NCBI GenBank assembly: GCA_019096065.1
Contig: JAGUCH010000007.1
Location: 3,370,501 to 3,434,500 of the forward strand
Source of the DNA: Paracyclopina nana
Lineage: Eukaryota; Arthropoda; Copepoda; Cyclopoida; Cyclopettidae
Reading direction: 5' to 3'
DNA length: 64,000 nucleotides
Positions 25,601 through 57,316 of this stretch are shown piece after piece; the stretch's first letter is position 1, and the number at the start of each line of letters is the position of its first letter. A model generated the notes under the pieces. It saw only the letters and a list, made by a program, of their open reading frames with translations. It was not told the DNA's origin and ran no database searches. A program made the translations under genes and the position numbers.

Positions 25601-26952
25601 CTAATAATTGAATTTAGAAATTGTGACAAAAAAGGTCATTTGCTATGACTCAAAAAGGAGGCGTCACATAGGATGGTGCAAAGTGAAGCCACCCACATCG
25701 AAGCAGCAATTTTCAGGGACATTGTATAACAAAAAAATAAGATATTCAATTTTGCTCTTTGCTCCCCATGTTTTTATTAATAAGGTGGGGATATTGTGAT
25801 GATGCAATTGGTCTACCAAAGAAAGATGAACTGGTGGAGCATAGGTTTTTCGAGGTGGAAACCACAGTTTTGCCAAATGATGTGTGCAAATTCTCATCTA
25901 AAAGGTCTAAAAATCTTGCTTAAAACAGGGGATGCTTCAACCTTTTTAAGTACTACATAGGATGCTGACAACAAAACAGTGTACTGGTTATGTGCCACAC
26001 AAGCCCTCAATTTATGAGTTCACCTTTGATAATTCCACTGGGCAGAACAATTTCACGCTTGAAAGATACTTGGGAGGATTTTACAGAGATTTTGTGCCCA
26101 AACTGGTCAGGAGGAAGAGCAGAAGACGCTATGATGATGATGTGTTGATAATCTTGCATCTTACTTAAAATTGATTTTAAAAATATTCCTCTCTAAAAGG
26201 GCAATGCTATGTATGATGGGACAAGAGCTGAATTCCATTTGGGATTTCCAGCTGACTACAAGGTGTGCCATAGGCCCTCCAATAAAATGAGTGACATGGG
26301 AGGTCCAACATATTGGAGGCTGGCAAGGCTCCAGACTCAAATGACCTCAGATGGGACCAGAGACACCACTCAAGAGCCTCAAGATAATGGCCAATCCATA
26401 GTGGTCTTGTCCAGCATCCAATCTGGATATTCTGAAGAGACTGGAGCTACATGTGATCTCAATGAAGGCTTTTACTTGGATGAAGAGATCAGTCTTCTTG
26501 CCACAGGCAAATACCTAATTTTATAGCTGCTATTGAATAATTTCATTAATTTAGGTGTGACTGATTGGCTGGAGTTGGAAATTAGTCAGTTGCCACATTT
26601 TGATAAGATGTACAACTTCAAAAAGGAGAGCTTCAGAAAAGTCATCAACCAAAAAGTGACCACTGCCAATCCTGCTTACACCATATTCACCACCACAATC
26701 ACCACAGCCAAATACACAGTGGGAGTAGACAATGCCACCACGACTTTCAACGAGTACTTGGATGTCATCCAATTTGACCCAGCTGACAATGCTGACATTG
26801 AATTGGATGAGGAGGAGATCAAAGGCCTCTTGCCGGATTATTCTGATAAAAAGACCAATTTTTGGCCAATAAGTGATGCAATTGGAAGCCAAAACGCCGA
26901 TTTCTCACCTTTAATCATCCTCAACTTTTTGGCAGCAATAAATGCTAATTAA
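22632..26952 (+). CDS. Secreted serine-protease homologue with long unknown N-terminal region
   Basis: About 19 small exons. Clear ones: 22632-22706, 22760-22920, 22983-23013, 23080-23139, 23189-23254, 23310-23380, 23441-23530, 23583-23676, 23726-23980, 24031-24206, 24257-24326, 24379-about 25086, then up to 25395, 25454-25566, 25618-25723, 25785-25904, 25961-26141, 26200-26506, 26555-26952. Signal peptide MALHGFVFALVIGFCQAF. Roughly 450 residues of Cys/Tyr-rich sequence I do not recognise precede a trypsin-like fold. Catalytic His is replaced (LTAATC for LTAAHC), Asp position reads FNVGLVGL, and the Ser motif is SDMGGP for GDSGGP, so the domain should be inactive. Such homologues often act as cofactors or binding proteins. 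Splicing at 25087-25250 is unresolved: no choice gives both good signals and full homology. The intron at 26507 appears to use a GC donor. Confidence 0.65.
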
Positions 26953-27987
26953 TTAGGGTCACATAGCACCCTTAAAGAGCGGTCATTTTGCCAAGATCCG
27001 GATGGGCCGTTGAAGACTGAAAATTCACCAGCTTTTCTTGCATCATTGAAGCAAATTGTGCTGTTCACCACACCATACTCCACATTGGCAGACTCAATCC
27101 CGCGACTACTTCCATCAACTGGATCATTGGTGATGACCCAATTAGCTCCCCTGTTTGGGCCCCAATCCCAATAATAAATGTAGCTTCCACCTAAGAAAAA
27201 ATGCAATCCAAACAAAGCAGAATATACGGTGGTAGGAAAACTTGCTCACCTCCTTTTTTGGTGAAGAAATATCTTCCATTTCGTAGGGCTGTTGCCTCAT
27301 ATACTCCAATTCTGGCAGGCTGAAAGGTCTGTCCAATCCCATTGGAAACCAGAGCCACTTTTTCGCAACAAGGCTCCTCAGTGTCGAGACACTCAATTCT
27401 CAAGTAGGTGTCCCTTTGCCAGGAGTTCGTGGTGAAAATGCTGAACGGGAAGCCCGACCTGTTGATGTCAGTGATGCACCAGCCAGAGTTGGAGTTTTGC
27501 AAATTCCTCGATTCTATCCTATGCTCCGAGTTTCGAAAACTCTCCCCAACCATCCAATTTTCACCCTTGTGTAAAAATCTTGCTCATTTCTCCATTTTCA
27601 AATAAAATATATCACTTACCTGACCTCTTCCCCAGTGCCAATAATAAGCATACAAGTCTCCTAAATTAGAGAAAATTGAGCTAAAGAGCAAAATTGGAAA
27701 ACAAAGTTACTTTCTGTGTGTTTGTAGACAAGCCTATTGTTCAATCTTCCTCCAGTGGCCTCATAGATGCCAATCGTCTCAGGCTGGAAGGTTGTCAGCA
27801 TGCTGGAAGCACTGACACGAATCCTCTGGCAGCATTTCAATCCCAATGTTTTGGGCTTCATTGACCAGCCGCTTTTGTAGAACAGAAGAAGCCCAAAAAG
27901 CTGCTAAATAAACATTTGTGAGGAGAGCCTCAACATTTTCTTTCACAATTGTATTTGATCTACCAGGTAGTACAACACTTTCTTCAT
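26949..27987 (-). CDS. Secreted protein with two copies of a Cys-Cys / YYWxWG module
   Basis: Exons in transcript order: 27987-27964, 27903-27711, 27660-27620, 27565-27250, 27190-26949; phases close to give 271 aa. Signal peptide MKKVLYYLQLFGLLLFY. Two tandem copies of one module follow. Each has a CC pair, FQPxxIGxYEAT, an RxxY segment, a YxYYWxWG motif and an NW segment, then a GSWQND or SWQRD end with LRxxC. The same pattern is seen in repeat 1 (GLKCCQRIRV...LYAYYWHWG) and repeat 2 (EPCCEKVALV...YIYYWDWG). I know no established name for it; it looks like an extracellular disulfide-rich binding domain. Its stop codon overlaps the stop of the convergent protease homologue by 2 nt. Confidence 0.7.
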
Positions 27988-28076: not shown

Positions 28077-31000
28077 TCACTGCTCTGTCTTTTCTCGAAG
28101 CACTTCACTTATTTTATGCTGCACTTTTTCCAAAGGAATCTTCTCACTCAGCAACTTGATGCCTTCAATGTTGCAGTTTTGAGCGAACGAGTCCAGTGCT
28201 TGAAAAGCAATGACTGTGGCTTGATCCTCATCACCAGATTTCATAAGGAGCTCAGCAGCTACTCTCAAAGAGTGGCCATCAGACTTTTTGGCCAAGGCCA
28301 AGGCTGATTCACGATAGAATCCAGCACCAAGCCAGCATTTGGAGGCCAACTCGTACATTCCATCTTGGATGGCTTGATGGGCCCATTGCTTTAGCAAATC
28401 CTTGATCAAGGGGTGATCGTTTGGCAGCCTGGATTTGGCAAGTGTCACAGCAGCCAAATGGAAATTGGCATTGACAAGGACTTGAATGGCCTTGTCCAAG
28501 TCATGAGCCATGAGGTAGTATGAACTGGCTTTTGTTGCATTGCCCTTTTCCTCCAATTGCTTAGCATAGGTGACACAAGCCCATTTCCAGGTATCATGAT
28601 CTAAAAATGATTAAAATGCCTATAATGGAATCAGTAGCTTAAAATGAGCACATACCAAGAGAGGCTGATAAAGTGACATGAAAGTCTGTAAGATGACCAG
28701 CAGCCTTTTCCAGCATGGCCTTCAACAGTTTGCAATCTCCAGACCAGTGTGCCAATGCCCAAGATTCGTCTCCATACGGCTTGGATACTTCCACAGCTTC
28801 AATCTCTTTAAGGAGCACTTTTTCAATGTCTTCATTGTTGGAGCTAAAAATGCTTAAATGCGGATTTGCCTCCAAGTCTTGAATGGGAGTGTCTTGAATC
28901 ATCAGGTTTTCAATATCTCTGAAAGCAGCCTCTTTGTGAGAGGCCTCATGGCTCATCATGACAGGAAAGTAAGCCTTTTTGTTCAGCTTCTTCACGTAAG
29001 ACTTGTCCTTCAGTGGAGAAACTTCTATTAATACTTCATTGCTGCTGCTGGTCTCAGCGGGAGGCTGTTTTTCGTAGATTTTTCTCGCTTTCTGCCTGGC
29101 ATTTTGAAACCAGACAACAATCACCCTGGGACTGAGGCCTAGCAGTTTGGACAGATACTCCAAATCGTCATCTTTGGGGTAAGCGTTGTTCTCGAAGAAC
29201 TCTTGCAGCACCTTGATTTGGTAATCAGGGAACCTGGTCCAGTTGGCCCTCTTGCCTTGGGTGGATCCCACAGATTGTGGGCTTTGAGGCCGGGGGTTCT
29301 GCCTGGCGAGGGTGTTCAAATAGTCGGGCATGGGCGGGGTGGTGGGAAGGCTGCATGTCGTCATCGGAAAGGCTGGAAAATTTGGCAGCAGAGGCGGAGG
29401 CTGACCTCCAGGGCCCGCAAGGGCGCCTGGAGTCAAGTGCGTACCCAGCAGCCTGGACAGGGTGAGCCCTGCCTCTGCCATGGTGGAGGAACAATTGGTT
29501 TCACTCACGGATGTTAATACTTCACCGGAAGTAGGTATTTCTTTGGGTTCTTTTTTCGGCTCAACTTCATGATTCTCCTCAGGAGAGTCGCGAATCAGCT
29601 CCGCTAAGCTTGTCTTTTCTTTTTTGCTGTTTCCGCTGCCTTTTTTAATTGGGTGAACATAGGGCTGCTTGGTGATGTCCCAAACAATAAGCATGTTATC
29701 TTCAGCACCAGTGAAGATGAGCTCCTTTTCTCCAGAGGGACTCCAAATGCCAGTGAAAACACGGTTGACATGTCCTCTAAAATTAGATAGAGGCTTGGCT
29801 TCTGACACAGCCCAAATCTGCGCAGTTCCATCATATGAAACGGACAACAACTTGTCCTCATCATAGGGACTCCAGGCAAGAGTGATGACTCTTAGTTTGT
29901 GCCCAACTAGAACAATGTCTGGTTTGGTCAAGATGCACTCCTCGTCACTGGCGAGAACATTTGCCAAATTCCAAATATGAATGTCGTACTCATTGGAAGC
30001 CACAGCCAAATAATTATCCATTTTCGAACCTGACGTCGAAGGATGCCAAGCCAAGCTTTGGATCAGTTTTTGGTAGGACTTCAAAGTTGCGACAATTTTA
30101 TGGTCAGATATCCTGCAAATCTCCACAGAGCCATCGTCTGATCCAAGAGCCAAATATTGGCCATTCGGATGAAAGGCCATGTTCGACCTGGATACTGCTC
30201 GTTTGCTCAAGAGGTCCTCGATGTTGAAGCTCTTTTGTCCCTGCTTATGCAAGAACACGACTCCGTCACCGAGGCTATAAAGCACCGTTTCATTAGGATC
30301 TTGCAGAGATGGTCCGTAGCAAAGGTTGTACACGCTGCCTCGGTGCTTGAAGTCCAAAAAGGAGGGATTCGGTCTTGGAGAGAGAGCATCGACAAATCCC
30401 ACACGACCTTCGTTGGTAGCAAAGGCCAGCAAGTTTTCACGTTCTGGGTGCCAAGTCAGCGCAGATATTTCGCACCTCGACAACTTTTGCCAAATTGTGG
30501 TGCAGTCAAACATCAGTTTGGTGGACGCTGTCTTCCACACACGAATTTGGCCATCTCCACTGCCAATGGCCAGAATTGAGGGGTCCACAAAATTGGTGGC
30601 CATGCACACGATCCTCGACGCGAAAGAGGGCAAATTGAAGACCAGTTCGTTTTGCTCAGAGTCGAAGCAAATCAATGATCGGTCATAACCACACGAGTAG
30701 ACATAATCTTGATGAACAGCAAAGGAAAATGCACTCTTTTGATGCTCGTGGTGCAAATATTGGAAATCGTTCTTGTCAGCCTTGATCAAGTTAGCTGAGC
30801 CCTCAGAGCTACACATTAACTTGTCCAAGCTCCAATAGCCGATTTCGCCTTGAGCACAAGATACGAAAACTTTCGATTTCGAGCCCCATTTCAATGTAAT
30901 CCATGGAGACTCCACTTTGGCCTTGCAATCAGGCATTTGCAACAATGCCAATTGTTTTGCAGTCGTTGAGCTCCACAAGCTCACGCTTCGATTGCGACAA

Positions 31001-31841
31001 GACACTGCCAAAACTGGTTCGGCCTCATCTCTAAAGATATCAAGCATCTCATTCTTGGGAGAAAAATCGAGGCCTTGAATGTCCTCATTGTGAGCTCGTA
31101 TCTTATGGATGATTTTTCCCTTCCCACTTATGTTGACGATCAAAGCAAGGCCTAATTTGCAACCCAAAGCCAAAATGCTCTCAGATACAGGATGACTCCG
31201 CATGACCAGGATAGTGTTCCGATTCAAGGACAAGTATCTAGTCTGGTTCAAGGTCGTGTCCCAAATGACAACATTTCCAGCATCATCTCCAGTTGCCACA
31301 ATGGATTCGTTGACCCAACAAACTGCATTGATTTTAGACTTCTGTAAGAAAAAAACCGTGATTTTCATTAAGCCATGCTATAAAATAAAGTGAGGCTTAC
31401 ATTTTGTGACACATCCTTGTGAGTGACATGTGTTTGAATGCAAGCAAGGTTGCTGGTGCCTTGATTGAATGAAAAGAGCTTAGCAATTCCATCATCACTG
31501 CAAGCAGCCAATTGATTTCCTTTAACCGACCAGGACACACCGGTGATCTTGGACTTGTCTCCAAATGCACTATGGCAAAGCGTAGCCTTGGGCCTTCTCC
31601 ATTCTGCCTTATTACGCCAATCAGAATTCTCAGACTTGAGTAATTCTACGAAAGTTTTCATTTTACCTAACAGAACATGAAATAGCAAATAGTCGTATGT
31701 ACCTCGGTTGTGAAACGTTTTCACAATGACAATAGAGTTCTTGGATCCATAAGCTACCAATCCGTGATGAGATGACACGTCCAAAATGTGAGAGCAATAC
31801 CAATTGGGAGCAGGAGGAAGTGAAAACTCAAAGTTCTCCAT
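28077..31841 (-). CDS. Gemin5: Gemin5 (SMN complex WD-repeat protein) with internal ZFH2/ZFHX-type homeodomain
   Basis: Exons in transcript order: 31841-31703, 31666-31401, 31341-28656, 28600-28077; they close in frame at 1204 aa. The start [16 protein letters not shown] matches the Gemin5 N-terminus. Two WD40 propellers fill about residues 15-715 (for example SASYDGTAQ-like [19 protein letters not shown]). Gemin5 recognises the cap and Sm site of snRNAs for snRNP assembly. After an acidic, KE-rich linker, residues about 756-900 are foreign to Gemin5: a Pro/Leu-rich stretch, then a homeodomain at about 832-894 with [25 protein letters not shown] and the recognition helix [18 protein letters not shown], closest to the ZFHX/zfh-2 class. 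Gemin5 TPR-like sequence resumes ([33 protein letters not shown]). The C-terminus stops early, so the decamerisation/RBS2 region of the human protein is missing. Confidence 0.88.
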
Positions 31842-32133
31842 TGTTGCGCCGACTAGGGTTCTAGATATTCCTCCGCGACTTCGTTTTACTACGTAATAGG
31901 GTGAACCGTAGAGAAAATCAGCTGTACTCAAGTACTAGCGCCGACCATAAAGTGAACCCAGCGATTTCGCGGAATATTTTTGTTTACGTCCTTAAAAATT
32001 GCGCAACGACAAACGAACTTTGACGAACATCTCACGCAACCTCGCGACTCCAAATCCTAATATCTTTATTTGGTACCTTAAAAGCTAGCTTTTTTAAAGC
32101 GATAAGAAATGCACGATTTTCAAGGTATTTCAT

Positions 32134-38667: not shown

Positions 38668-39762
38668 TCGATAAGTACCAATAGCTTAATAGCTTAATGT
38701 ATTGATTCATTTTAGGGCTGCATCCCACTTAAAAATATTAAGCAGTAGAGTATTTGTGAAGCAATGCAAATGCCTGATTTTCATATTTTTTGGAAATTTT
38801 CTGGGTCTGTGATGAAGCTTAAGTTTGGCATTTCTGTACCAATTCATAACGTTGAATCATTCTGTTCTACAGGAAACCCCAATTATCTCAATTGAGCTTC
38901 TAACAAATGAGGTGAATTTTCACGCGTAGCTCTGATTTTGCTGCTGCTCCAACTTTTATTAATGACGTTTTTGCGTCAAGTGCCTTTTTAGTTTTTGGGT
39001 ACTGTATAGGATCCGGAAGTCAACCTGGCTACACTAGATGGTACTGAGTTCAGACGGCTTGACGTCATCAGTGCGCATTGCGCAATCGTAGTTGACCCTA
39101 GAGCTCTAGATTTTGATGAGTAGATCGCTCTCAAAACTTAGCTCCAAAAAAACAGCCTAAAGGTAGCCGGCCGGCCCATGCCATGGTAGCACGACATCTG
39201 CCCATTTTTGTTCCATTCATTCCGTTAATTTCATTATGTTATGCTATTTTTTATTTGGTATTTGGAAATTGTACCGAGAAACCATGAACCCCTCAAAATT
39301 TCGTTCCGATCGGAGCTGTTGTTTTTAGCTATAAGGTACAATGGCGTCTGTTACGTAGTACAGTCAGCGCACCCTGGCGTGAAAAGCCGTGTAATATGTT
39401 CACTACAGAGGCAGCTAAATAGCAATTCGAAATTTGCCAAAAAATTGGCCTTCCCATATGATTTCTCAAAAATTCGATAAATAATATTTGAGCCCTATTA
39501 CATTTCATGCCACTTAGTTTAAAAAAATCAGGCCAATCAGCAGAAAAAAAAGCGGGAAAATGTTAAAGCAGAGTTAAATAATGTTGGCTTTTAAATGGCG
39601 CTACCAGATAAAAACCTTTTTCATCGCATAATTTGCGATTTGGGCTGCTTTATGAAAATACTGGCAAATTTTAGCAGCTTTTGAGTGCGTAACCTTAAAA
39701 TATTTTTTTTCACACTTTTCCGTCAAAGCGTCATGCGTAAACAGCTGTACTACCGGTATATC
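38668..39762. other. Intergenic region between tetraspanin and the MULE
   Basis: About 1.1 kb with no supported gene. A GCCGGCCGGCCC palindrome lies near 39167 and loose TTCCGT/TTCCATT-like motifs near 39210 resemble the transposon end just downstream, so the true element boundary may be slightly left of the one given. Confidence 0.45.
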
Positions 39763-40817: not shown

Positions 40818-41480
40818 TCACTGTTTCGAGAGGCTCCCTGAGTCTGATGGGGGATAGTGGATGTAAGGACCACTGGGTTCGTCCCCATGGGCAGGAGGTT
40901 GCGGGTAGGCTTGCTGGGAAGCTAAGGGTCTCCGTACATTGCGCGGCGAACTGTCCGGCGATTCATCAAAGCAAACTCGGCGTGATAGCGATCTAGCGCG
41001 ACGAAAAGATCGCCTCAAGGTGGGACCCAAAAATAATTCAGCTAGGGTAGCTAGATCAGGACCTTGGCTGGTGCTGGAAGTTATCGCTGGGACCAGAGCT
41101 TGGGCGAACTGGGGCTGTGGCTGAGGCCGAGGCTGAGGCTGCGTCTGCGTGTATTGGGGACGAGGTGCAGAAACTGTACGTTGAGGCGGTGGGTTCTCTA
41201 TTGAAAGTTCTAGCAGGTCTCGCTGTCTATCGAAGTGAGCTCTCTGAGCTCGTTCAAACCTCCTAGTCTCATGAGTTTCACAAATGTCTTTGCAAAATAG
41301 GTGGCAGCGATACATGGCATAAATAATCACAGTAAGCAGAAGTGCGATGCCAATGGCTCCAAGGGTGTTCTGCCATGAAAACCATGATTCTGAAGTATCC
41401 TGACTATTAACGTTCAGGAGAGCAATGTTCTCCTGCTCATTTGTAATTTTGGGGGTGTCAGATGATGCCGAATTTCCCAT
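40818..41480 (-). CDS. Gypsy-1 accessory ORF A: myristoylation motif plus single membrane span
   Basis: 220 aa. It begins MGNSASS, a good N-myristoylation signal. A membrane span (LGAIGIALLLTVIIYAMY) follows after about 40 residues, then a Cys/His segment (CHLFCKDICETHE), a basic helix (RFERAQRAHFDRQRDLLE) and a Pro/Gln-rich region. No signal peptide or fusion-glycoprotein features are seen, so it is not a standard envelope gene. Homologues are in Gypsy-2 and, by architecture, Gypsy-3. Confidence 0.8.
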   Translation of the reverse strand: MGNSASSDTPKITNEQENIALLNVNSQDTSESWFSWQNTLGAIGIALLLTVIIYAMYRCHLFCKDICETHETRRFERAQRAHFDRQRDLLELSIENPPPQRTVSAPRPQYTQTQPQPRPQPQPQFAQALVPAITSSTSQGPDLATLAELFLGPTLRRSFRRARSLSRRVCFDESPDSSPRNVRRPLASQQAYPQPPAHGDEPSGPYIHYPPSDSGSLSKQ

Positions 41481-41602
41481 CTTACCTCAGCTGCTTAGTA
41501 ACTTATTAAAGTTGAGATTTGAAGTTTCTGAGATTCAAAGCTGGACTGTGCTAACTGCCGTGGTGCTTTGAATTTTATAATGGGGGTGCAAGTGTTTCGA
41601 GG

Positions 41603-42540
41603 TTACTTGCGCGCGTCTCGCTGCTGCTGCTGCTGCTGCTGCTGCTTCGCGATAAAAGCTTGGGATGCGGGGCGAATGAAGCGCTCATTTCGTCTATACG
41701 TTGTCCCATCTGGGAGCTGAACTAAAAAGCTGCGTCCATAAGGGCAAGCTTCTTTTATTACAGCGTGACTGTCCCAAGTCTTTTTGATGGGGTCCTGCAA
41801 AAATACGGTGTCCCCGACGCTTATTTTGGGTGGTTTGCGCTGATTGGCTAATGCGGCTACTTGTCCTTCCGTCTTTTTCGCGGGGCGCGCTGTGATTGGC
41901 TGAGACGGGAGTAGCGCGTCTTGCACTATGGGCAAATGAGTGCGCAAGTTGCGGCCAAGGAATAAACGGGCTGGGCTTATTCCATCAGCGCGCGCTAAGT
42001 TGCGGAACTCTAGCAATTTGGACTGGAAATCGTCAAAGTTTTTGGACTTTTTCATGATTTGCTTAACAGATTTGACCCCGCTTTCACTAAGCCCATTACT
42101 TTCGTGGTTATATGGGCTTGAACAAGTGAAAATGATGTTATTTTTCACGCAAAATGCTTTTATCTCCTTGCTATCAAAATATGGGGCCCCATCGCTTCTA
42201 ATGATGATTGGATAGCCAAAGTTTGTGAAAATGCGCATAAGTGCATTAATTATAGCAGTGGAAGTGTAAGTTTGCATTTGCGTAACAAAAGGCCAACCTG
42301 AATAAGCGTCTACTACTATTAAGTAGTCTTGACCTGCATTGTGGAAAAGGTCAAGTCCAACGCGATGCATGGGGAATCTGGGAATTTGAGTTTCCATGTC
42401 ATGTGTAACATGACTTGATGACATATGAGTTTGGCATTCTAAACAGGCTTCAACAAAATTGCGTATGTCTTTTGTCATGCCTGGCCAGTAATAAAACTGT
42501 CTGGCTGTAGCTAAGGATTTTGTAATTCCTGGGTGGCTTT
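41603..42540 (-). pseudogene. Gypsy-1 integrase segment, out of frame with gag-pol
   Basis: Reads GMTKDIRNF and HHCC-type Cys (ECQTHM) at the N-terminus, then core motifs DAYSGWPF, SDGAPYF and NHESNG with the catalytic Asp, Asp and Glu. A C-terminal SH3-like region (GDTVFLQDPIKK) and a Gln tract encoded by CTG repeats (about 41621-41645 on plus) follow. The frame is separated from the upstream polymerase frame by an 8-bp loss relative to Gypsy-2, so this copy cannot make a normal Pol protein. Confidence 0.85.
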
Positions 42541-45500
42541 CATGAATGGCACACGCTGCCTGGCCTCTTTTGGGATCAGCACTTTAGTGTGATCCATTAG
42601 TATGAGGCCATCTTGAACTGCCAAATCATGCCATAAGCTGACAGGAATGCTGCGAAATGCTGAGCTAATGTCTAGTCTAGTCTTACGCTTGTTCCTATGG
42701 AGGTCGAGCTTAATTGCTTTTATCATCGCATTGTAATCGAGGTCAGCTTCTGCTGCCTCATGAATGTGCTGAAAAATTGGATCTTCTGCAGACTTGATAG
42801 CTATGAATGCATTGATATCATAGTGACCCCCTTTTTCTTCTAAGTAAGGCTTTTCAGAATATCCCACGGGATATCTGGATAAGGCGTCTGCTATAGTATT
42901 GCATTTCCCCTCTAGATAGAACGCTTCGAAGTTAAAGTGTGTCAGTTTTTCTCTTAGTCTAACTAGCCTTTGATTGGGGATGTCAGCTAGGCTTTTTTGA
43001 AATAACCCAATTAGTGATCTGTGGTCTGTTAGAACAGTGAATTTTGGGCAGCCTAGCAAAAAGTGGGCAGCACTTTCGCATGCAAAAACTATTCCAAGTA
43101 GCTCTAGTTCGATAGTCGAGTAATTGAGCTCTGCACTTGAGTTTCGTCTCGATCCGCACATTATAAGGTAACGTTTTGAGGGGTCCAGCTTGTCTTCTTG
43201 CATTAGTATATAGCCTATGCCATAAAGCCTGCTCGCGTCAGAAATAAGAACTGTTTTTCTAGCAGGGTCAAAATGTCGAAGGACAAGTGGTCCCGTGAGA
43301 ACTTTCTTTAATTCCAAAAATTCCTTTTCGTGCTCAGGAAGCCAGACAAAAGCTGTTTTTAGCTGTGTCAATTGTCTGAGAGCTAAGGTCATATGCGCGA
43401 GGTCTGGGAGGAAATTTCCTAATGTTTGACATAAGCCAAGCCAAGACCTGACATCTGTTGCATTTTGGGGTCGGGGGAAGTCTTTTATGGCTTCCAAGCT
43501 CTTTTCGTGTGGCTCAATTCCAGCTGAGCTAACCCAAAAACCCGCAAATTTGACTTTTGGTCCGTAATCTACTTTCTTTGAGGAAAGGCTGATTCCTAAC
43601 TTGGAACAGTTCTTTAATAGGGCCTCTAAAGATATGAGTAAATCGCTTTCAGAATGAGAGTAGATGAGAATGTCATCTACTAACTTGATGCTATTTGATA
43701 TGCCAGATAAGACTTTATCGCTTCTAGCGCACCATTCATCAGACGATGCGTTGAGTCCCATGGGAGCTAGCAAGTATCTATATCTTCCTTGTGGCAGCAA
43801 AAATGTGGTCAAATAGCTACTTTCTTCATCTAGAGGCACTTGGTGATAACCTTGTACAGCATCTAAGGTGATGAAGAACTTTGCATTGGGGGGAATATTT
43901 TTGAGGCAGTAATACGCCGAGACGAACGGGTGAACCGGTCTTAAAACATACTTGTTAAGGGCTACGTAATCCGTTACAAGTCTAACGGACTTGGCGTCTG
44001 CCTTTTGAACAAAAAATCCTCTGCTAGTCCAAGTGGACTGCTCCCCAGAGTCTAATTGCTTTATTATACCGGCTTCTTCTAGCTGAGCCAAGCAAGTGTC
44101 AGCAGCAGCTTTTAGATGAACAGGTATTGCATTTGTTGAGCTGATGCGCATTGGCTTAATGGGGCCATCAATTAGTGATATGTGCATTGGTTCCCCCTTT
44201 CGCATTCTAGTTGGGTCAAGCTCTTTTGCAAAAACAGACTCATATTTCACTTTGAGCTTATCTAAAGTGAGCGTTTCGGTTAAAGTTGCTAAGTGGACTT
44301 CGAGGTTAACCGAATAATTAATTGTGAGCACGCCTAGAGCTGTAGCAGTGTTCCAGTCGAGGATAATCTCATTGTCCTCGAGGTCTACTACATATGGGGA
44401 AATTGTCATAAACTTTGAGTGGAACTTTACGGTGACCGGACACGTTTTTCGTGCGCATATGTCGCTTCCCGCAATTCCCCTTAGTTTTTCCCCAGCTTCA
44501 AAAATGGGCATGCTATACTTTTTGCAGACTTTTTCTGGAAAAACGCTAACCATTGCCCCACTATCTGGTAATGCCCTGGCAGTGAATTTTCTGCCCTTTT
44601 CAGGGGCGAATTCGAATAGTGGGCGTGGCATTGCCGTTGGATTTTCATCTGAATAAGTGGCTGAGCCATGCACTATTGGAAAAACTTTCAAGGCTTGTTT
44701 TGTCTGAGCTTGATGTGCAAAAATCGGTTTGCGTTTGAACTTTGCCCCCTTGCTCCCCTTCAAGCGAAGCTCGATCATCTTGTAAGCTGTGCGCATGGCT
44801 AGCTTAAACTGCTTAGTGTAAAATGCAGGGTATGGCAAAATGCAGCCTTTGAAAAGTCTGTAATTAGTGACTCTAATGCATTTGCATAGATCCTGGCCAT
44901 TAGCTGAATTTGAGCTTGTTTTGACCTGATCTAATTGCTGATCTAGCAGGTCTTCTGTTGCCTCAGGGAATCTAACCGTATCATAGTGTGGAGGGGGGCT
45001 AATTATAGCTTCAAATTCCTGCTTTGTGATGCGCTGAAGAGGTTCAGTTTTGCCAAAGGATGACTTCTCATTGGCATAAGGCTGAGCTACTTGAAAAAGA
45101 GCTTTGTCATCAGCCGGAACAAGCGTAATTCGGGCAATTTTGAAACTGCTAACCTTGGGGGCTTCAGTATTGACTGATCTAACCTTTTTGGGACCCTGTG
45201 GCTTCTTTTCTGGGTCAGATCTACAAACTGGGGCTATATGACCCTGCTTTTTGCATTTGTTGCAGGTAGCCTCACGTTTTGGGCAGTCCTTACGCGCGTG
45301 TGAAGAACTGCCGCAGCTAGCGCATTTATTGGGCTTACTAGCTCCCTTGGGAATGTCCTTGCTAGGGGGTTTGTTGGCAGCTGGCTTAGGGGCTCCCATT
45401 CTTTGAGACTTTTTGTAAGAAGTGGGCTGAGCCTTCTTAATAGAATGTGGCTCCTTGCTTCCTAGCCTAACTGTCATTTTGTCAAATTCCCTGCCCTCGT

Positions 45501-46665
45501 GAACAATGCCCTTGATGTCAAGGTCATTGCGTGAATCCTCCCTAGTTATTGATTTGATTAGGGGCTTGTGGGTGAGTGAAGCGAGTAGAAGGTATTTATA
45601 TATATCCTCCTTTGTCATCTGGTCCCAGAGAGCTGCTCTGGCCAGATCTACGAACTCAGCATAATGACCCCCAAAAACTAGGCTTGTCTGCTTGAAATTG
45701 AAAAAGTCATTGCGACGTCTGTCCATTGGGTAGACTTCCTCATAGAATTCAAGTATCATGTCACAAAGTGACCTGGTGCCCTCCTCTGGGGGGTCTTTGG
45801 AAAAAATGGGAGTGTCTGGTGGGGCTTGATGCAGTCTAGCATACAATTGGGGCCCCACTAGCTTAAGTAGGTATCCGCGCTGCTGAGACAAAGACTGGGT
45901 TAAGTACCCAGAGGCCTCAAAGTAAGGCCAAAGACTGTCCATAAACCGGAATAGTTCCAGTGCAGTGGACGAGTCTTTTAAGTTTTCTGGTCTCAGCGCG
46001 TCATTGCTGCGCGGGGTTCTATTTGAGCCTGAGCTCGGGGTAGATTCCGATCCTGCATTTAGGGGCTTTCCTAAGGTTTGAATTTGCTGCTGTAAGTGTG
46101 CAAGCATCCCTACTGTAGAGCCTGCTTCAGCTTCTGCAATTTTCGCGAAAATTTTGGGCAGAATTTGTGACTTACGCGTTAGTAAAGGCCTTGCTTTGTC
46201 CGCGATGTCATTTACAGCGATTTTGCTTATCGTATCGATGAATGCCTTAAGCTCTACCTCATATGATGCAATTTGATCAGAGAATTCACTTAGCTTTTTG
46301 GAGATGGAAGGCATGGTGGGGAGCTTGAGGTATTCCAGGGCCTCTTGCAGAGATGTCCTTAGGGTGATGTACTTGTCCTTCACCCCTGGTATGAGCATTC
46401 TCAAGTCACTTTCATGTTTCTTGAGAACTTTTGACATGTCTATGTCAAACTCAGGTAGCTCAGGCAAGGTATCCCCGGACGTGTCTTCTTCCTCCTTTTT
46501 CACCGCCAGAAGCTGGGTTAGCTTTTCTGTCGTCAGCGTATTTCCCAGTTCTTCATCCTCCACTGGCGTAGTGGTGCCAGATGCTGTTGATGATCTCGTG
46601 GGCATTGGAGTTCCATGTGGTACCAATCCCTTCCTCCCTGAAGGAGGAGTTCTGTCCAGAGACAT
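42511..46665 (-). CDS. Gypsy-1 gag-protease-reverse transcriptase-RNase H polyprotein
   Basis: A single 1384-aa frame from MSLDRTPPSGRK. Gag occupies about the first 450 residues, followed by two zinc knuckles (CASCGSSSHARKDC and CNKCKKQGHIAPVC). The protease has ALPDSGAMV. Reverse transcriptase shows LDAVQGYHQ, APMGLNAS and the VDDILIYS active box. RNase H follows with ISDASRLYG, IELELLG and VLTDHRSL. The frame then ends early because of the break before integrase. Gag and Pol are in one frame, which is common in some Gypsy lineages. This is a retroelement typical of invertebrates. Confidence 0.93.
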   Translation of the reverse strand: MSLDRTPPSGRKGLVPHGTPMPTRSSTASGTTTPVEDEELGNTLTTEKLTQLLAVKKEEEDTSGDTLPELPEFDIDMSKVLKKHESDLRMLIPGVKDKYITLRTSLQEALEYLKLPTMPSISKKLSEFSDQIASYEVELKAFIDTISKIAVNDIADKARPLLTRKSQILPKIFAKIAEAEAGSTVGMLAHLQQQIQTLGKPLNAGSESTPSSGSNRTPRSNDALRPENLKDSSTALELFRFMDSLWPYFEASGYLTQSLSQQRGYLLKLVGPQLYARLHQAPPDTPIFSKDPPEEGTRSLCDMILEFYEEVYPMDRRRNDFFNFKQTSLVFGGHYAEFVDLARAALWDQMTKEDIYKYLLLASLTHKPLIKSITREDSRNDLDIKGIVHEGREFDKMTVRLGSKEPHSIKKAQPTSYKKSQRMGAPKPAANKPPSKDIPKGASKPNKCASCGSSSHARKDCPKREATCNKCKKQGHIAPVCRSDPEKKPQGPKKVRSVNTEAPKVSSFKIARITLVPADDKALFQVAQPYANEKSSFGKTEPLQRITKQEFEAIISPPPHYDTVRFPEATEDLLDQQLDQVKTSSNSANGQDLCKCIRVTNYRLFKGCILPYPAFYTKQFKLAMRTAYKMIELRLKGSKGAKFKRKPIFAHQAQTKQALKVFPIVHGSATYSDENPTAMPRPLFEFAPEKGRKFTARALPDSGAMVSVFPEKVCKKYSMPIFEAGEKLRGIAGSDICARKTCPVTVKFHSKFMTISPYVVDLEDNEIILDWNTATALGVLTINYSVNLEVHLATLTETLTLDKLKVKYESVFAKELDPTRMRKGEPMHISLIDGPIKPMRISSTNAIPVHLKAAADTCLAQLEEAGIIKQLDSGEQSTWTSRGFFVQKADAKSVRLVTDYVALNKYVLRPVHPFVSAYYCLKNIPPNAKFFITLDAVQGYHQVPLDEESSYLTTFLLPQGRYRYLLAPMGLNASSDEWCARSDKVLSGISNSIKLVDDILIYSHSESDLLISLEALLKNCSKLGISLSSKKVDYGPKVKFAGFWVSSAGIEPHEKSLEAIKDFPRPQNATDVRSWLGLCQTLGNFLPDLAHMTLALRQLTQLKTAFVWLPEHEKEFLELKKVLTGPLVLRHFDPARKTVLISDASRLYGIGYILMQEDKLDPSKRYLIMCGSRRNSSAELNYSTIELELLGIVFACESAAHFLLGCPKFTVLTDHRSLIGLFQKSLADIPNQRLVRLREKLTHFNFEAFYLEGKCNTIADALSRYPVGYSEKPYLEEKGGHYDINAFIAIKSAEDPIFQHIHEAAEADLDYNAMIKAIKLDLHRNKRKTRLDISSAFRSIPVSLWHDLAVQDGLILMDHTKVLIPKEARQRVPFMKATQELQNP

Positions 46666-52050: not shown

Positions 52051-52695
52051 TTATTTTGAATTGCCGCCATCTGAAGGTGGGTAGTGGATGAACGGGCCGC
52101 TGGTCTCATCGCCCGGTGGTGGACGAGGGTAGGGTTGATGGGATGCTAAGTGTCTCCTTGCAACACGCGGTGAGCTGTCAGGTGATTCATCGAAGCAAAC
52201 TCTTCGCGAAAATGACAATGTGCGATGAAAGGATCGACGAAAACTGGGAGCCATGAGTAAGTCTGCAACTGCTGCTAGGTCTGGACCTGTATGGGTTATA
52301 GCAGGGACCATGGCTTGTGAGTTAGCTGGCATGGACTGGGCTTGCATGTTTGGCATGGGCTGGGGTGCCCGCTGTGGTTGGGGCCAGGCTCGCGAACCAG
52401 GGGGCGGATTGTCAATTGTAAGTTCTAACAGGTCACGCTGCCTGTCGAAGTGAGCCCTCTGAGCCCTTTCGAAACTTCGAGTCTCGTGCGAGTCGCAAAG
52501 GTCTTTGCAGAAGAGATGGCCCCGATAGATTCCGTATATTATTAATGAAATCAACAAAGTTAGTACCACTGCTCCCAAAGTATTTTGCCAAGTAAACCAT
52601 GAATCCGAAGTGCTTTGGCTGTTCACGTTTAGAAGGGCAATGTTTTCCTGCTCTTGGACCTTAGGGGCTTCAGTAGTCGATTGTGAGCTTCCCAT
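52051..52695 (-). CDS. Gypsy-2 accessory ORF A: myristoylation motif plus membrane span
   Basis: 214 aa from MGSSQSTT. It has the same order as in Gypsy-1: myristoylation signal, LLNVNSQ segment, membrane span (VVLTLLISLIIYGIY), Cys/His segment (HLFCKDLCDSHE), basic helix and Pro-rich region, ending with a RRVCFDESPDSS motif and a YPRPP tail. The frame is intact although pol is not, which suggests independent selection or recent insertion. Confidence 0.8.
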   Translation of the reverse strand: MGSSQSTTEAPKVQEQENIALLNVNSQSTSDSWFTWQNTLGAVVLTLLISLIIYGIYRGHLFCKDLCDSHETRSFERAQRAHFDRQRDLLELTIDNPPPGSRAWPQPQRAPQPMPNMQAQSMPANSQAMVPAITHTGPDLAAVADLLMAPSFRRSFHRTLSFSRRVCFDESPDSSPRVARRHLASHQPYPRPPPGDETSGPFIHYPPSDGGNSK

Positions 52696-52818
52696 CTTAC
52701 CTCAAAGTTTTGTTTGTTGACTTTCGATTGAATCTAGAAAGGTTGAAGATCCAAAGCTGGACTGGTGCAGTCTGAATGAGTGCTTTGGATTTTATAACGG
52801 AAATGCAAGTATACTACT

Positions 52819-53700
52819 TTACTTGCGCGCCTCCTGCAGCTGCTGCTGCTGCTGCTTCGCGAGAAAAGCTTGGGATGCTGGGCGGATGAAGCGCTCGTTT
52901 CGTCTGTACGTGCTACCGTCTGGAAGCTGAACTAAGAAGCTTCGTCCGTAAGGGCAGGCTTCTTTTATTATAGCGTGACTGTCCCAAGTCTTTTTAATGG
53001 GGTCTTGTAAGAAAACTGTGTCCCCGACGCTTATTTTGGGTGGCTTGCGCTGATTGGCTGAAGCTTCTACCTGTTCTTCCGTCTTTTTAGCGGGGCGCGC
53101 TGTGATTGGCTGAGAGATTGCTAGCACGTCTTGCATTATCGGCAAATGGGTGCGCAGATTGCGGCCAAGAAATAAGTGGGCGGGGCTTATCCCATCAGCG
53201 CGAGCTAAGTTGCAGAATTCTAGCAGCTTTGACTGGAAATCGTCAAAGTTCTTAGACTTCTTCATGATTTGCTTAACAGATTTGACCCCGCTTTCACTTA
53301 GCCCATTACTTTCGTGGTTATATGGGCTGGAACAAGTGAAAATGATGTTATTTTTCGCGCAAAATGCTTTCAGCTCTTTACTATCAAAGTATGGTGCGCC
53401 ATCGCTTCTAATTATGATTGGATAACCAAAGTTAATAAAAATGCGCATGAGTGCATTGATTATTGCAGCTGAAGTGTAAGATTGCATTTGCATCACAAAA
53501 GGCCAACCTGAGTAAGCATCTACTGCTATTAGGTAGTCTTGACCTGCATTGTGGAAAATGTCAAGTCCAATGCGATGCATGGGGAATCTGGGGACTTGAG
53601 TCTCCAGGTCATGTGAGCTATGGTTTGATGGCATGTGAGTTTGGCATTCTTTACAAGCTTCTACGAAGTTCCTAATGTCTTTGGTCATGCCTGGCCAATA
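52819..53700 (-). pseudogene. Gypsy-2 integrase segment
   Basis: Same domain order as Gypsy-1 integrase, with DAYSGWPF, SDGAPYF and NHESNG. It is separated from upstream pol by a TAA at 53701-53703 where the related elements have a Tyr codon in a YYW motif. Gln tract at the C-terminus is shorter than in Gypsy-1. Confidence 0.85.
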
Positions 53701-55974
53701 TTAGAACTGTCTGGCAGTAGCTAAAGACTTTGTGATTCCTGGATGGCTTTCATGTATGGTCTCTAGTACGCGCTGTCTAGCTTCCCTTGGGATCAATACT
53801 TTCGTATGATCCATGAGAATAAGGCCATCTTGAATTGCCAAATCATGCCATAAGCTGACTGGAATGCTGCGAAAAGCTGAGCTAGTGTCTAATCTAGATT
53901 TGCGCTTGTTCTTGTGCAGGTCGAGCTTAATTGCTTTAATCATCGCATTGTAATCGAGGTCAGCTTCTGCTGCCTCGTGAATGTGCTGAAAAATTGGATC
54001 TTCTGCAGACTTTATAGCTATGAATGCATTGATTTCATAGTGATCCTTATCCTTTTCTTCTAAGTAGGGCTTTTCGGTATACCCCACTGGATATCTGGAT
54101 AACGCGTCTGCTATGGTGTCTTTTATGGCTTCTAGACTTTTTTCGTGTGGTTCTATCCCGGCTGAACTAACCCAAAAACCTGCAAATTTGACCCTTGGTC
54201 CATAATCTACTTTCTTAGAAGAAAGGCTGATTCCTAGCTTGGAACAGTTCTTTAACAGGGCCTCTAAAGATGTGAGTAGATCGCTTTCAGAGTGAGAGTA
54301 AATGAGTATGTCATCTACTAACTTGATGCTATTTGATATGCCAGATAGAACTTTGTCACTTCTCGCGCACCATTCGTCTGATGATGCGTTGAGTCCCATG
54401 GGAGCTCGTAAGTATCTGTATCTACCTTGGGGCAGTAAAAATGTGGTCAAATAGCTGCTTTCTTCATCTAAAGGTACTTGGTGGTAACCCTGTACTGCAT
54501 CTAGAGTGATGAAGAACTTTGCACTGGGAGGAATATTTTTGAGGCAATAATATGCTGAGACAAACGGATGGACCGGTCTCAGCACGTATTTGTTGAGGGC
54601 TACGTAATCTGTTACTAGTCTAACTGACTTGCCATCTGCCTTTTGAACAAAAAATCCTCTGCTAGTCCAAGTGGACTGCTCCCCAGAGTCTAATTGCTTT
54701 ATTATACCGGCTTCTTCTAGCTGAGCCAAGCAAGTGTCAGCAGCAGCTTTTAGATGAACAGGTATTGCATTTGTTGAGCTGATGCGCATTGGCTTAATGG
54801 GGCCATCAATTAGTGATATGTGCATTGGTTCCCCCTTTCGCATTCTAGTTGGGTCAAGCTCTTTTGCAAAAACAGACTCGTATTTCACTTTGAGCTTCTC
54901 TAAAGTGAGCGTTTCGGTTAAAGTTGCTAGGTGGATTTCGAGGCTAGCTGAGTAATTGACTGTGACCACGCCCAAGGCGCTGGCAGTATTCCAGTCAAGT
55001 ATGATCTCATTGTCTTCAAGATCTACTACATATGGGGTGATTTTCATAGACTTTGAGTGGAATTTTACGGTGACTGGACAAGTCTTTCGTGCGCATATGT
55101 CACTTCCCGCTATTCCCCTAAGCTTTTCCCCTGCTTCAAAAATGGGCATACTGTACTTTTTGCATACTTTTTCTGGGAAGACAGTGACCATTGCCCCGGT
55201 ATCAGGCAGTGCCCTGGCAGTGAACTTCCTGCCTTTTTCGGGTGCAAACTCGAAAAGTGGGCGTGGCATGGCCGTTGGGTTGTCTGCAGAGTAATTTGCT
55301 GAGCCCTGGACTATTGGAAGCATTATTGGAAGTAGACTCAAAGATTGCTTTGCCTGGACTTTGTGCGCTGTAATAGTCTTAAACTTTGCCCCCCTTGACC
55401 TCCCCACGAAGTGCTGAATCATCTTGTATGCAGTGCACATAGCTAATTTGAACTGCTTGCCATAAAAAGCTGGGTAAGGCGAAATGAAGCCTTTGAAGAG
55501 TCTGTAATTAGTGACTCTAATGCATTTGCATAGATCATTGCCATTAGATGAATTTGCTGTTTTGGCTGCCTGCTGATTTATGGGTTGCTCAGCATGCTGA
55601 TCCATTAGCTTTTCGATTGCCATGGGGAATCTAACCGTATCATAGTGTGGCGGGGGGTTGATTATGATTCCAAAGTCAGCTTTTCCATAGCGCTGGTCAA
55701 TTTTGCCAAAAGTTGAGTTTTCCTTAGCATATGGCTGAGCTACTTGAAAAAGAGCTTTCTCATCAGCCGGTACCAGCGTAATGCGTGCAATTTTGAAGCT
55801 GCTAACTTTGGGGGGCTCTGTATTGACTGATCTAACCTTTTTAGGGCCCTGGGGCTTCTTGTCTGGGTCAGACCTGCAAACGGATGCCAAATGGCCCTGC
55901 TTTTTGCACTTATTGCAGGTGGCATCGCGTTTAGGGCAGTCTTTACGCAAATGTGAAACTGCCGCAGCTGGCAC
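53701..55974 (-). pseudogene. Gypsy-2 protease-reverse transcriptase with RNase H deleted
   Basis: Includes the second zinc knuckle, protease (ALPDTGAMV), and reverse transcriptase (LDAVQGYHQ, VDDILIYS). Directly after LEAIKD the reading jumps to TIADALSRYPVGY, so about 200 codons holding the RNase H domain are lost in frame (near 54118). It ends at a nonsense codon just before integrase. Confidence 0.88.
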
Positions 55975-57316
55975 ACTTATTGTTGGGCTTGTTAGCGGCT
56001 CCCTTGGGAGTGTCGCCTTGGGATTTGGCAGCTGGCTTTGTTGCTCCCATTCTTTGAGACTTTTTGTAAGAAGTGGGTTGAGCTTTCTTAATTGCGTGTG
56101 GCTCTTTGTTTCCTAGCCTAACTGTCATTTTATCGAATTCCCTGCCCTCATGAACAATTCCCTTGATGTCAAGGTCATTGCGTGAATCCTCCCTAGTAAT
56201 TGCTTTGATTAAGGGCTTGTGAGTGAGTGAAGCAAGTAACAGGTACTTATAAATGTCCTCTTTTGTCATCTGGTCCCAGAGGGCTGCTCTGGCCAAATCT
56301 ACAAACTCAGCATAATGGCCCCCAAAAACTAGGTTTTTCTGCTTGAAATTGAAGAAATCATTGCGGCGCCTGTCCATTGGGTAGACTTCCTCGTAAAATT
56401 CAAGTATCATGTCACAAAGTGACGTGGTGCCCTCTTGTGGGGGGTCTTTAGAAAAAATGGGTGCATCTGGTGGGGCTTGATGCAGTCTAGCATACAATTG
56501 AGGCCCCACTAGCTTAAGTAAGTAACCGCGTTGCTGAGATAGAGACTGGGTCAAGTACCCAGAGGCCTCAAAGTAGGGCCAGAGACCGTCCATAAACCTG
56601 AATAATTCAAGTGCAGCGGACGAGTCTCTTAAGTTCTCTGGTCTCAGCGCCTCATTGCTGCGCGGGGTTCTATTTGAGCCTGAGCTCGTGGTAAGTTCCG
56701 ATCCGGCATTAAGGGGCTTTCCCAGGGTTTGAATTTGTTGCTGCAAATGTTCAAGCATCCCTACTGTGGAGCTTGACTCAGCTTCTGCAATTTTCGTAAA
56801 AATTTGGGGCAGAATCTGAGATTTTCGCGTAAACAGTGGTCTTGTTTTCTCGGCGATGTCATTTACAGCTATCTTGCTTATCGTGCTAATGAATCCCTTG
56901 AGCTCTACCTCGTGCGCGTTAATGGTATCGGAAATTTCACTTAGCTTTTTGGAGATGGACGGTGTGGTGGGGAGCTTGAGGTATGCCAATGCTTCTTGCA
57001 GTGTAGATCTCAGGGTGATGTACTTGTCCTTAACCCCTGGTATCAGCATTCTCAAGTCATTGATATGTTTCTTGAGAACCTTTGACATCTCAATGTCAAA
57101 CTCAGGTAGTTCAGGCAAGGTATCCCCTGGCGTTTCTTCATCCTCCTTCTTCACCAAAAGCTGGGTCAGCTTTTCTGCGGTGACCGTGTCCCCATACTCG
57201 TCTTCTTCCACTGACGTGGTGGAGCCAGATGCTGCTGAAGATCTGGATGGCATTGGTGTGCCTGGGGGCTGTCCGAGTGCCTTTCTCACCGAGGGGGGTG
57301 TTCTATCCAGAGACAT
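55943..57316 (-). CDS. Gypsy-2 gag protein
   Basis: 457 aa from MSLDRTPPSVRK, co-linear with Gypsy-1 Gag through CASCGS in the first zinc knuckle. A 2-bp loss there relative to Gypsy-1 shifts the frame and ends the protein, and the pol frame continues from the overlapping frame at 55974. Gag therefore lacks intact zinc knuckles. Confidence 0.85.
   Translation of the reverse strand: MSLDRTPPSVRKALGQPPGTPMPSRSSAASGSTTSVEEDEYGDTVTAEKLTQLLVKKEDEETPGDTLPELPEFDIEMSKVLKKHINDLRMLIPGVKDKYITLRSTLQEALAYLKLPTTPSISKKLSEISDTINAHEVELKGFISTISKIAVNDIAEKTRPLFTRKSQILPQIFTKIAEAESSSTVGMLEHLQQQIQTLGKPLNAGSELTTSSGSNRTPRSNEALRPENLRDSSAALELFRFMDGLWPYFEASGYLTQSLSQQRGYLLKLVGPQLYARLHQAPPDAPIFSKDPPQEGTTSLCDMILEFYEEVYPMDRRRNDFFNFKQKNLVFGGHYAEFVDLARAALWDQMTKEDIYKYLLLASLTHKPLIKAITREDSRNDLDIKGIVHEGREFDKMTVRLGNKEPHAIKKAQPTSYKKSQRMGATKPAAKSQGDTPKGAANKPNNKCASCGSFTFA

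Follow-up and report, generated by a model that had tools for sequence, protein, structure and literature searches.

In the survey of domain gains in animal proteins by Buljan et al. (2010, PMC2926785), 71% of gains were terminal, the main route being the joining of exons of adjacent genes. Segments copied from one locus and inserted elsewhere have been described in humans as templated sequence insertion polymorphisms, divided into class 1, with a target-site duplication, a poly(A) tract and a LINE site, and class 2, with microhomology and no duplication (PMC5110952). In Daphnia, break repair leaving short direct repeats is the model for recent intron gains; 43% of gained introns are reported to carry such repeats at their junctions, and the sequence origin of new introns is often unknown (PMC3443670).

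The locus described here lies in the copepod Paracyclopina nana, in a 64,000-nucleotide stretch of DNA analysed as a whole (the window), where a segment of a zfh-2 exon interrupts exon 3 of Gemin5. As in the surveyed animal gains, a protein has gained a domain; unlike in them, the domain entered the middle of an existing exon and its source stands on another contig, so that, measured against the survey (PMC2926785), the arrival of a whole DNA-binding domain mid-exon in an unrelated gene looks an uncommon route. The locus resembles the Daphnia introns (PMC3443670) in that foreign sequence sits in coding sequence between short direct repeats, apparently recently and in a crustacean; it departs from them in having a known nuclear exon as its source, an in-frame insert and no good in-phase acceptor for its removal. 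With the templated insertions it shares the copying of a segment from a distant locus, and it differs from either class alone (PMC5110952): a target-site duplication is present without poly(A) or TTTT/A, leaving the duplication as the only class 1 trait, and the 2-3 bp of microhomology that recall class 2 occur together with that duplication. The features are the following.

28077 to 28600, minus strand: last Gemin5 exon found, with the TPR-like domain and the stop codon (open reading frame 28077-28610).
28656 to 31341, minus strand: Gemin5 exon 3, open throughout although interrupted by the block (open reading frame, putative splice sites, Gemin5 PDB and Pfam matches).
29028 to 29038, no strand: first copy of the target-site duplication, TTAATACTTCA, sharing its last 3 bases with the donor (microhomology).
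29036 to 29515, minus strand: block copied from one zfh-2 paralogue exon, with 5 substitutions (donor G000:C1:14535892 onward, minus strand).
29068 to 29070, minus strand: Asn to Lys at codon 62, immediately past the homeodomain (comparison with the donor).
29074 to 29253, minus strand: 60-residue ZFHX-type homeodomain (Pfam PF00046), in which base 29241 accounts for the change of Arg5 to Trp and base 29229 for that of Thr9 to Pro.
29514 to 29524, no strand: second copy of the target-site duplication, TTAATACTTCA, sharing its first 2 bases with the donor (microhomology).

Exon 3 of Gemin5 is 2.7 kb long, on the minus strand, and a splice-site scan places a putative donor at 28655 and a putative acceptor before 31341. 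The stop-to-stop frame in the list of open reading frames comprises 912 codons (28639-31377, minus strand) and runs without a stop through the propellers, a linker, a Pro-rich stretch, the homeodomain and a Gemin5-like C-terminal part. Residues 25-589 match the tandem WD propellers of solved Gemin5 structures (PDB chains 5h3s/5gxh, E about 1e-80) and residues 714-766 match PF00046 at 58.8 bits; frame and matches together confirm the proposal of an earlier note, made from the letters alone, that a homeodomain is fused in frame inside a Gemin5 exon. The Pro-rich block that it described before the homeodomain is present, and alignment with five Gemin5-like relatives bears out its description of Gemin5 sequence resuming after the homeodomain.

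A putative 55-nt intron from 28655 precedes the last Gemin5 exon found, which on reading resembles the end of relative P0001. Residues 621-830 of P0001 match the TPR-like domain of PDB 6rnq, and the domain is assigned to the present gene by C-terminal alignment to this relative, the protein on which the match was tested. Gemin5 here and in P0001 stops soon after the TPR-like domain. Vertebrate Gemin5 carries a long C-terminal part, which in the copepod gene seems either absent or located in exons not found. Among the 50 of 98 candidates scored in the genome (92 Mb, 10 contigs), none was a second Gemin5. The start codon lies, by reading, at 31841. Just upstream, one arm of a miniature inverted-repeat element (31846-31945) is flanked by the 8-bp direct repeat GCGCCGAC at 31846 and 31938; about 80 genome matches to the element were listed, and a fuller copy (L032) consists of two 73-nt arms. 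Downstream of the gene, small open frames at 26949-27903 have by eye a common aromatic pattern like YYWDWG...NW. Elsewhere in the window, a dispersed repeat of about 425 bp (39329-39755) recurs dozens of times across contigs C1-C9, with 81-95% identity among the matches (39 of 490 candidates were scored), and a local duplication links 41184-45999 with 52399-56650, stretches of which are 82-85% identical. Rfam at gathering scores returned nothing in the window. In a tree of GPN3, encoded by a neighbouring gene, the window's protein falls with the copepod Eurytemora in a group of 25 rows (support 100/99), in which Eurytemora alone is named as a copepod; by this tree the animal would probably be a copepod. 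COX1 gave no match.

The zfh-2 donor still stands elsewhere in the same genome, on contig C1, in an exon with an open frame of 1407 codons. Block and donor are 98% identical in protein and agree at 99% of 483 bases; compared base by base they differ at six positions, one of which (29516) falls outside the block, in the duplicated target, leaving five in about 480. The net gain is 486 bp, or 162 codons in the donor's own frame, and 475 bp separate the repeat copies. A second zfh-2 paralogue, about 60 kb from the donor, is 66% identical over the block; the two paralogues (L009 and L011) face in opposite directions on C1, and their open frames, of 1407 and 1944 codons, contain several homeodomains. 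Within the genome, the donor exon matched the Gemin5 copy, the other paralogue, two short stretches of 35 bp and nothing else, and a wider genomic spread of the segment was rejected on that basis. The block differs from its flanks in base composition, as had been remarked from the letters (GC 0.55 in 29000-29499 against 0.42-0.49 in most neighbouring intervals), and the near-identical donor segment stands out in the same way (0.56 against 0.45 in the rest of the exon).

The search for a zfh-2 gene in the same genome that the earlier note had suggested thus retrieved both the donor paralogue and its neighbour, and the inferred insertion of a zfh-2-like coding piece into Gemin5 is upheld by the donor exon, its five differences and the flanking duplication. 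Its interval, 29035..29495, was nearly right at the start and fell short at the end, as identity with the donor runs 29036-29515; the donor exon and the 11-bp flanking repeat are features beyond what it had described.

That repeat, TTAATACTTCA, stands exactly at both ends of the block and is absent from the donor. Three junction bases on one side and two on the other are common to target and donor, so the duplication measures 6-11 bp. When places in the window were paired at random 300,000 times, a match of at least 11 bp in any of 7 registers turned up in 13 pairs. The two copies are offset by 486 bp, a multiple of 3, and in the sense direction only the common frame is open. By hand calculation, about 1 random patch in 18 would combine sense orientation, the right frame and a frame-neutral length, and selection against a broken Gemin5 may therefore have filtered the patch. 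Direct reading of the block revealed neither a poly(A) tract nor a junction matching TTTT/A. Carriage by a transposon was also considered and rejected, the block being donor sequence without an added element; the check for terminal inverted repeats was by eye only.

The block begins at about residue 621, the propellers end at residue 589 (PDB matches), and in P0001, which has no insert, the TPR-like domain follows 75-79 residues past the propellers; taken together, these positions place the entry point in a linker, past the WD propellers and ahead of the TPR-like domain. Given this location and the preserved frame, Gemin5 probably stays functional. An AlphaFold2 model of the block with its flanks (18 sequences; mean pLDDT 55.5, pTM 0.33) contains the three helices of a homeodomain; 42 of its residues reach pLDDT 90 or more, and confidence in the remainder is mostly low. 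The homeodomain of the Gemin5 copy therefore looks still foldable in the model, which does not gauge the effect of single substitutions.

Relatives of both parents were searched for the same arrangement. The closest Gemin5 among the matches listed was P0001 (73% identity over 63% of the query), and this protein and four other Gemin5-like relatives align on both sides of the block without containing it. The homeodomain motif WFQN occurred in none of the 16 Gemin5-like proteins fetched, in agreement with the earlier remark that Gemin5 homologues have no homeodomain. With 267 residues centred on the block as query, the matches carried the homeodomain Pfam mark and none spanned the block together with Gemin5 flanks (120 of 184 matches listed); the Gemin5-wide query likewise returned no match spanning both parents (120 of 222 listed). 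Proteins with at least six five-residue words of both parents numbered zero among 360 fetched, a set that includes 120 GPN3 matches, which could not be fusions. A near-identical transcript did not appear among the matches listed. Five zfh-2 relatives (putative orthologues among the matches listed) showed 86-90% identity over 51-54% of the 267-residue query, below the donor's 98%, so that the copying probably took place after those lineages had branched off. In openly licensed PMC articles, the titles and abstract starts listed for Gemin5 with homeodomain show no fusion of the two, and the article that holds both Gemin5 and copepod is, by its title, unrelated.

The inserted domain is a ZFHX-type homeodomain by its PF00046 match, its 98% identity to a zfh-2 paralogue and its three predicted helices. 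It resembles the ZFHX/zfh-2 (ATBF1) homeodomain in being identical to that of the donor at 58 of 60 residues and in matching the solved homeodomain 2da2; it is unlike ZFHX/zfh-2 proteins in that the copy comprises only an upstream stretch and one donor homeodomain, has no zinc fingers, and is changed at Arg5, Thr9 and Asn62. Among the zfh-2 homeodomains it resembles HD3, and the residue numbers 5, 9 and 62 follow standard homeodomain numbering. Two of the five substitutions are silent; the other three alter amino acids, turning Arg5 into Trp, Thr9 into Pro and Asn62 into Lys. With the second paralogue as outgroup, four of the five arose in the Gemin5 copy, the fifth site not being alignable; the two N-terminal-arm changes already suspected from the letters are real, and both belong to the copy. 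Positions 5, 9 and 62 are invariant in 104/104 ZFHX homologues of a first set (108 matches, P0013-P0120, of which 104 have a homeodomain, in 25 distinct sequences, and 4 are propeller proteins). In a wider set of 180 homeodomain-holding proteins out of the 360 fetched, Arg5 was present in 179; position 9 carried Thr in 167 proteins and Ser in 13, and Asn occupied position 62 in 156, Lys in 3. The copy thus has Trp where the N-terminal arm of a ZFHX/zfh-2 homeodomain has Arg5.

Over the 65 codons of the homeodomain region, copy and donor differ in three codons, all amino-acid changing, and between the zfh-2 paralogues 29 codons but a single amino acid are different; under the paralogue pattern, that of the copy has a hypergeometric P of about 0.0008 (by hand from codon counts). 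For the whole block, three nonsynonymous changes out of five give P values of 0.24, 0.07 and 0.014 at dN/dS of 0.2, 0.1 and 0.05, respectively, which is weaker evidence for relaxation than the 65-codon comparison would provide, five changes being few. Former constraint on the homeodomain nevertheless seems relaxed, and three changes in three codons would also be the pattern expected from positive selection. In Ubx, mutating five DNA-contact residues together, Arg5 among them, abolished DNA binding (PMC4705621). Weakened binding is thus a more likely result of losing Arg5 than a new specificity, and the suggestion of an altered DNA specificity found no support, the substitutions fitting lost constraint.

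We consider it probable that the block is a recent ectopic templated insertion, that Gemin5 remains functional and that the homeodomain is a tolerated passenger. A double-strand break with staggered ends would have occurred in exon 3 of Gemin5; filling in of those ends would account for the duplication of 6-11 bp, and some 480 bp copied from one exon of a zfh-2 paralogue would have been joined in as a patch through microhomology of 2-3 bp. Duplication plus microhomology without poly(A) is as expected from a filled-in, patched staggered break. A patch of reverse-transcribed RNA would be indistinguishable from one of DNA, because the segment lies within one exon. That the patch is sense-oriented, in the donor's frame and frame-neutral may be ascribed to luck and selection. 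The block would be translated without being spliced, and the homeodomain would since have been drifting, its Arg5 DNA contact included.

The reading closest to the Daphnia model takes the block for an established or emerging intron that arose through break repair, so that it would be spliced out and the Gemin5 protein would have no homeodomain. Short direct repeats at the junctions are the signature reported for new Daphnia introns (PMC3443670), and 11-bp repeats are present here; the coding-5' edge also offers a good 5' site (TCC/GTGAGT at 29508, 5.4 bits, against a range of 1.4-8.9 in 20 putative introns), although an identical GTGAGT lies inside the donor exon. A usable acceptor that would remove the block was not found: of the 23 AG sites listed for 28900-29110, the strongest (28951) reaches 1.8 bits but is out of phase, and the strongest that is in phase with 29508 (29052) reaches -0.7 bits, whereas none of the 20 putative introns falls below 6.6 (phases by hand). 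The gap is overstated, because these comparison introns were chosen partly for their pyrimidine tract, and the comparison therefore leans against an intron. Stronger acceptors at 29372 (8.1 bits), 28843 (5.1) and 28664 (5.8) are out of phase with 29508. The comparison introns come from a second intron finder, an earlier one having kept 7 candidates. Preservation of the frame would, moreover, be unneeded in an intron. Clean splicing-out of the block, an outcome the earlier note had named as fatal to its claim, is accordingly made unlikely, and we regard an intron as an unlikely, weak reading. A LINE-type insertion of a zfh-2 RNA fragment mediated by a retrotransposon would likewise explain a target-site duplication, which at 5 bp or more is a class 1 trait (PMC5110952); given the absent poly(A) tract, both ends in mid-exon and a junction unlike TTTT/A, we hold it to be improbable.

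If instead Gemin5 had acquired, through the homeodomain, new contacts with chromatin, DNA, RNA or proteins that selection preserved, then the open in-frame fusion, the predicted fold and the protein-changing nature of all three substitutions in the homeodomain region, as adaptive change could produce, would find an explanation. Set against this are the near-universal presence of Arg5, a DNA-contact residue in Ubx (PMC4705621), and the invariance of the three changed positions in the first set; and in so young an event selection for a function could not be shown. A functional chimera has in our estimate only a slim chance, and so has its variant in which a translated fused Gemin5, with its homeodomain freed of the Arg5 contact, would now be undergoing remodelling by selection into an RNA-, chromatin- or protein-binding module. 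The working DNA-binding Gemin5 envisaged earlier is unsupported and, while possible, is not the best reading, since the substitutions fit lost constraint. An assembly chimera or artefact, which the use of a single assembly could suggest and which the earlier note had listed as a way of being wrong, was rejected: a misjoin does not generate a flanking 11-bp duplication or five private substitutions, with Gemin5 intact to either side, and we judge misassembly highly improbable.

Under the favoured reading, a patch retained as a tolerated passenger, the locus offers a clean and probably young example of domain entry mid-exon, in which donor, duplication, frame and first substitutions can still be read. 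Since this type of insertion has also been proposed as a source of new introns, it lets one ask whether a patch is kept as protein or spliced. It also carries a warning, in that an annotated domain label, here homeodomain and hence DNA binding, may describe a passenger.
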